DNA of 47,192 nt from Dunaliella salina. Taxonomy: Eukaryota; Chlorophyta; Chlorophyceae; Chlamydomonadales; Dunaliellaceae. The DNA is taken from assembly GCA_002284615.2 (NCBI GenBank), contig MU069829.1:238578-285769 (forward strand). Direction: 5' to 3'. Made by a program: the position numbers and the translations under genes. Positions 5,282-46,981 of this stretch are shown here, piece by piece; position 1 is the first letter of the stretch; every line of letters begins with the position of its first letter. Below the pieces are notes generated by a model, which ran no database searches, was not told the origin of the DNA, and was given only the letters and a program-made list of their open reading frames with translations.

Positions 5282-5372
5282 GTATCCCGGCGGGATCTCC
5301 CTGTCGTCCTGGCCAGCAAAATGGACGGAGCCACCACTGTTTCTGCGACCATGCTGCTGGCAGCTGCCGCAG
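5282..5372 (+). CDS. psuG: psuG exon a (VSRRDLPVV...[10 protein letters not shown])
   Basis: The acceptor is the AG at 5280-5281 and the donor GT follows 5372. The exon holds 30 codons plus one base (phase 1 exit). It encodes VSRRDLPVV, then [16 protein letters not shown], a well-conserved family block. It is the first recognisable exon in the window; the preceding one was not found in 1-5281. Confidence 0.93.

Positions 5373-46981: not shown

Follow-up and report, generated by a model that had tools for sequence, protein, structure and literature searches.

Copies of exon edges in the introns of two Dunaliella salina genes and their probable origin in ordinary short tandem duplication

Introduction

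Several introns in a stretch of Dunaliella salina DNA contain degraded copies of a neighbouring exon edge together with its splice site, called echoes here. Are these echoes produced by a process directed at exon–intron junctions, or by ordinary duplication of local DNA which happens to touch an exon? The window is the whole stretch of DNA that was analysed (47,192 nucleotides, positions 238,578 to 285,769 of contig MU069829.1, assembly GCA_002284615.2). An initial annotation attributed the echoes to recurrent short local duplication focused on junctions, which would enlarge introns and leave decoy splice sites. Recurrent short duplication, with the addition of intron sequence and decoy sites, is supported by the present analysis, and the focus on junctions is not.

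We give a probability of about 0.83 to the reading that ordinary short tandem duplication, tolerated across splice junctions, gave rise to the echoes wherever a duplicated unit happened to touch an exon. Its basis is the excess of direct over inverted copies, the position of the copies on the predicted side of the exon, their adjacency in the younger cases, the lack of a codon pattern and a similar rate of duplication in mid-intron.

Gene models

The exon positions come from tblastn searches with homologous proteins combined with splice sites; exons are labelled a to h from position 5282 in psuG and 1 to 15 from position 46981 in DGK.

5282 to 15885, plus strand: psuG-like gene (pseudouridine-5'-phosphate glycosidase), 8 exons a–h, found with PsuG proteins
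5282–5372, 5573–5615, 7829–7916, 9041–9082, plus strand: psuG exons a–d
10771–10868, 13934–14039, 14296–14358, 15721–15885, plus strand: psuG exons e–h
21669 to 46981, minus strand: DGK (diacylglycerol kinase) gene, span of the 15 placed exons, found with algal DGKs
46981–46898, 46755–46692, 42145–42083, 41783–41711, 37503–37417, minus strand: DGK exons 1–5
35806–35715, 33475–33308, 28465–28377, 28090–28062, 27402–27275, minus strand: DGK exons 6–10
25249–25148, 24345–24262, 23797–23723, 22362–22303, 21767–21669, minus strand: DGK exons 11–15

The eight psuG exons form a single open frame ending in a stop codon and are separated by GT–AG introns; no 5' exons of this gene were found upstream of 5282. 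The best match of psuG is from Chlamydomonas reinhardtii (81% over 44% of the query). The 15 joined DGK exons give 432 stop-free codons, and the protein is nearest to green-algal proteins (46% for an unnamed protein, 43% for Haematococcus lacustris, 42% for Chlamydomonas eustigma). The DGK introns are also GT–AG, save for a GC donor after exon 13 (23722), the sole non-GT among 22 donors. The 21 introns between the psuG and DGK exons have a mean length of 1.6 kb. Rfam and tRNA scans of the window gave no matches.

Exon-edge echoes

Seven of the 45 splice junctions, belonging to six exons, lie within a local same-strand duplication, a junction being counted as covered when the duplication extends 8 bases or more beyond it in both directions. 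These are the donor of psuG c, the acceptors of DGK 5, 6 and 7, and the donors of DGK 7, 10 and 11.

7889 to 7938, plus strand: psuG exon c donor edge, source
8046 to 8095, plus strand: echo of the psuG c donor edge, downstream, 74% over 50 columns
13916 to 13954, plus strand: psuG exon f acceptor edge, source of a weak echo
13461 to 13498, plus strand: weak echo of the psuG f acceptor edge, upstream, about 38 bp, local score 18, fit score 15, below the BLAST threshold
37459 to 37541, minus strand: DGK exon 5 acceptor edge, unit of a complete tandem duplication, offset 83
37542 to 37628, minus strand: echo of the DGK 5 acceptor edge, adjacent, upstream, whole-unit alignment z 15.9
35766 to 35823, minus strand: DGK exon 6 acceptor edge, source
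35864 to 35912, minus strand: echo of the DGK 6 acceptor edge, upstream, offset 97, remaining unit not alignable
36589 to 36645, minus strand: second echo of the DGK 6 acceptor edge, upstream, offset 823, remainder not alignable
33449 to 33531, minus strand: DGK exon 7 acceptor edge, source
33737 to 34179, minus strand: minisatellite upstream of DGK exon 7, periods of about 59 and 111, units matching the acceptor and exon start
33264 to 33364, minus strand: DGK exon 7 donor edge, unit of a tandem duplication, offset 98
33166 to 33259, minus strand: echo of the DGK 7 donor edge, downstream, GT lost, z 15.0
27264 to 27331, minus strand: DGK exon 10 donor edge, source
26959 to 27026, minus strand: echo of the DGK 10 donor edge, downstream, offset 305, strong donor
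25142 to 25193, minus strand: DGK exon 11 donor edge, source
25024 to 25141, minus strand: two further tandem copies of the DGK 11 donor edge, period about 60, both with GT, downstream, z 8.8

The same orientation and graded divergence described initially are found again: the 14 exon-edge alignments, six of which belong to the DGK 7 acceptor, show 74–83% identity, and all 14 pass through the junction. The initial list of at least seven exons holds for psuG c and DGK 5, 6, 10 and 11. The echo of psuG f is weak, and DGK 8 drops out, its best same-strand match being 25 bp long and outscored by the reverse-strand control (16 vs 12). DGK 7, absent from that list, is added with echoes at both ends; since the earlier exon numbering may differ, the exon formerly called DGK 8 may be DGK 7 here. 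For the first psuG exon (5282), a spanning echo was sought and none was found, the only repeat there being an upstream intronic one.

The cases differ in how much of the duplicated unit is left. Complete head-to-tail units are recognised at DGK 5, the DGK 7 donor and DGK 11. Decay has removed most of the intronic portion of the 305-bp unit at DGK 10 and left a 32-column near-diagonal remnant (reached by 1% of shuffles); at the DGK 7 acceptor, the matching array is about 200 bp away. The remainder of the predicted unit could not be aligned at DGK 6 and psuG c, where only the exon-anchored part is recognisable. These non-adjacent copies (DGK 6, psuG c) could instead be short local templated insertions.

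The copies lie on the side which tandem duplication predicts (upstream for an acceptor, downstream for a donor) in all seven echoes. When weak matches are included, this is true of 10 of the 11 junctions scoring at least 12, the exception being the psuG e acceptor, a weak match with a score of 13.

Local duplication throughout the window

When the window is compared with itself at E ≤ 0.05 after masking of simple repeats, 65 direct and 2 inverted local pairs at most 1.5 kb apart are obtained. The direct pairs are concentrated at offsets of 50–800 bp; at distances above 1.6 kb they are about as numerous as the inverted ones (19 and 21). Local direct duplications account for 13.2% of the noncoding bases and 15.1% of the coding bases. 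Some of them are far from any exon edge, as in the following mid-intron examples.

13587 to 13881, plus strand: 148-bp unit present twice, no junction
34460 to 34620, minus strand: 75-bp pair, offset 86, no junction
29522 to 29874, minus strand: duplication with offset 152, 67% identity over 206 columns, no junction

It is extremely unlikely that the echoes are an assembly artefact or chance similarities. The weak cases, psuG f and DGK 8, may be due to chance. Against this explanation, 10 dinucleotide shuffles in 1-kb blocks yielded no local pair, direct or inverted, in any of the 10, and the copies are 17–26% different, which is unlike assembly error.

An equally small probability is given to the idea that the echoes are parts of a mobile or introner-like element carrying splice sites. 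The window does contain dispersed repeats, one of which (35950–36414) sits between the two DGK 6 echoes. However, none of the 27 dispersed repeat pairs in the window overlaps an exon-edge block, and every echo matches its own neighbouring exon. The initial view that no standard transposon would do this is thus supported, and the mobile element is rejected on the lack of dispersed copies of exon-edge blocks within the window.

Junctions compared with mid-intron positions

Three tests, all with simple repeats masked, compare junctions with other positions of the window. In the score test, a 50-base piece centred on the junction is fitted to 1.5 kb on either side; it includes 44 of the 45 junctions because the donor of the second psuG exon (5573–5615) adjoins a simple repeat. 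A score of at least 12 is reached by 11 of the 44 junctions (25%) versus 174 of 975 mid-noncoding points (17.8%; Fisher p 0.16), and a score of at least 20 by 6 of the 44 versus 93 of the 975. The junction scores as a whole are not above the mid-noncoding ones (Mann–Whitney p 0.20). With the reverse strand as a control, two junctions reach 12.

In the coverage test, the 7 covered junctions compare with 5.3 expected under circular shift (p 0.31), and stricter and looser settings give 4 to 7 of the 45 (p 0.34–0.57). At the scale of this one window, the comparison with mid-intron positions therefore does not show a higher echo frequency at junctions, and the focus proposed initially is not upheld.

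The event test was added because large arrays inflate the control in the other two. The pairs form 27 clusters, 7 of which touch a junction; random placement predicts 3.5 (p 0.05) and local shifts of 0.5 to 8 kb predict 3.8–4.4 (p 0.06–0.09), for a ratio of 1.7–2.0 with a 95% interval of about 0.7–4.1. This test is the most favourable of the three to a focus on junctions, and the excess that it gives in these two genes is borderline: a focus is not shown, though a mild one may exist. The 7 junction clusters do not differ from the other 20 in offset (p 0.70) or identity (p 0.89), as judged from cluster-level values, for which the best pair of DGK 10 and of the DGK 7 acceptor is not the exon-edge pair.

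These results bear on the idea that duplication is targeted to exon–intron junctions, for example by nicks or breaks during transcription and splicing. The event count speaks in its favour, as does the report of more tandem repeats near intron–exon junctions in Chlamydomonas reinhardtii and Volvox carteri, in the available passages of PMC3887541. Against it, the coverage and score tests show no excess, and offsets and identities are alike in junction and mid-intron clusters. An exon under selection might also keep old echoes recognisable for longer and so raise the junction count, a bias to which the column identities given below lend no support. Targeting is therefore considered unlikely. In its fuller form, duplication in this algal lineage would be about twofold favoured at junctions through breaks tied to transcription and splicing, introns would grow outward from exon edges, and decoys would equal or exceed the true sites in strength; this too we regard as improbable. 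If it were true, the choice of splice site would need information beyond the site itself. The similar rate in mid-intron makes the echoes look like ordinary genome drift rather than the product of a special splice-site mechanism.

Decay and coding constraint

If the echoes were duplicated exons under selection, serving as alternative or mutually exclusive exon ends, their coding part should bear the mark of it. The codon comparison covers 8 of the 14 alignments, all from DGK, with DGK 6 and DGK 11 entering twice. Differences between exon and echo are even across codon positions 1, 2 and 3 (21/115, 24/116 and 20/115). The amino acid differs at 40 of 110 codons; ten algal homologs (10 of 120 among the matches listed) favour the exon at 29 of these, the echo at 7 and neither at 4. 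The differences thus lead mostly away from the residues that homologs keep.

Some observations agree with selected exons: the 110 aligned echo codons contain no stop, and 11 of the 12 scored echo sites keep their dinucleotide and 11 of 12 rank high among the sites of the window (see below). On the other side, besides the codon data, each echo is only part of its exon. Use of the DGK 5 echo or of the first DGK 11 echo would lead to an in-frame stop, and splicing at the closer of the two DGK 6 echoes, at a distance of 97 nt, to a frameshift. Selected alternative exons are accordingly rated very unlikely, and this reading is rejected on the codon-position pattern and the homolog comparison. Judged from sequence, the echoes appear to be decaying copies of exons and not exons under selection.

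The exonic columns of the exon-edge alignments were expected to be better kept than the intronic ones. This is not borne out: 394 of 500 exonic and 393 of 501 intronic columns are identical. Alignments which end where the intron has decayed may account for this equality.

Echoes as splice sites

The initial annotation held that the echoes carry their own donor or acceptor. Indeed, AG or GT is kept at 11 of the 12 scored echo sites, the one exception being the DGK 7 donor echo, which lacks GT; for the DGK 7 acceptor array, only three copies, from one exact 12-base string, were scored. Splice matrices were built from 22 donors and 23 acceptors. With these, 11 of the 12 echo sites score at or above the 91st percentile when ranked among the GT or AG sites on the minus strand of the window.

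Some acceptor echoes score above the site from which they derive (6.1 vs 1.4 at DGK 5, 3.2 and 5.9 vs −3.7 at DGK 6, 8.1 vs −3.0 at psuG f). Leave-one-out scoring was applied to the true sites but not to the echoes, so small differences in score mean little. Of the 23 acceptors, the four with the lowest scores include three (35806, 37503 and 13934) with a higher-scoring echo upstream, a post hoc observation on few sites.

Proposed mechanism and relation to known systems

The favoured reading, ordinary short tandem duplication, would proceed as follows. Local DNA would be duplicated in short tandem units, at the offsets seen in the window (mostly 50–800 bp); the copies still recognisable cover about 13% of noncoding bases. 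A unit lying across an acceptor would give a copy of the intron end and exon start, followed by the intact exon; a unit lying across a donor would give the intact exon followed by a copy of the exon end. As the outer, intact junction would still be usable by splicing, a duplication crossing a junction would be tolerated. By contrast, a duplication within an exon would give a longer protein or a frameshift. In the intron, the copy would then decay, free of coding constraint, into a splice-site look-alike. The units may come from replication slippage or from staggered breaks that are filled in and joined, and selection on splicing would act as the filter.

The closest precedent is a potato RdRp gene, in which a tandem duplication across an intron–exon boundary copied the splice signals (PMC4974935). 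According to the available parts of that paper, the duplication ran from the 3' part of an intron into the 5' part of the exon that follows, and the copied exon is partly intronic, as is the case here. Unlike here, a new intron was gained in potato, and this was checked against related species. In the window, as judged from sequence, exons are unchanged, old introns grow and several events are found in two genes. Boundary-crossing duplication is already published (PMC4974935). The echoes work like it and like the systems described below, and are best filed as further instances, with no new intron evident.

Tandem duplication has also been proposed as a source of novel introns in Drosophila genes (PMC2891723), and the model of Rogers (1989), as cited in PMC4974935, derives intron gain from tandem duplication of exonic sequence. 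As far as the available passages of these sources go, the resemblance lies in a short tandem duplication with splice motifs, one copy of which loses its coding status. The difference lies in the starting point: AG/GT motifs within exons, from which introns are created, as opposed to the existing junctions seen here.

A plausible molecular source is suggested by analogy. In the consulted part of PMC8355091, small tandem duplications are linked to staggered breaks in mammalian cells and called the commonest insertions below 100 bp in the human genome, and tandem duplication from staggered nicks in plants is cited. Those copies, like the present ones, are direct, adjacent and short.

In green algae, intronic tandem repeats with units of 1–50 bp, largely simple repeats, are densest near intron ends, according to the accessible text of PMC3887541. 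Tandem repeats within introns of chlamydomonadalean algae are common to both cases, and that work reports a bias towards the ends of the introns. Copies of exon edges, unlike the repeats with units of 1–50 bp, are not described in those passages of PMC3887541.

The echoes are real and mostly ordinary. They indicate that ordinary short tandem duplication can enlarge introns and place splice-site look-alikes beside true sites, the intact exon being the reference which makes old duplications recognisable. Such loci could be used to study how a true splice site is told apart from its near copies, and they call for caution from gene finders in algae with long introns. A targeted mechanism, which the data from the window do not support, would be of greater consequence.

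Other repeats in the window

Among the dispersed repeat pairs are four in opposite orientation (12094–12757/45218–44602, 28911–29376/36414–35950, 34633–34784/46451–46297 and 1098–1233/18061–17926). These four are 70–83% identical over 136–665 columns and are probably old mobile elements. Two near-perfect palindromes, at 26841–26936 (94% self-complementary) and 13263–13354 (78%), belong to one common repeat family.

A 20-bp minisatellite of about 30 copies occupies 22721–23312 in DGK intron 13 and contains several open frames on both strands. Long GT or CA runs lie just 3' of the second psuG exon donor (5616–5745) and just 5' of two psuG acceptors, those of the fifth exon (10617–10740) and the seventh (14176–14262).
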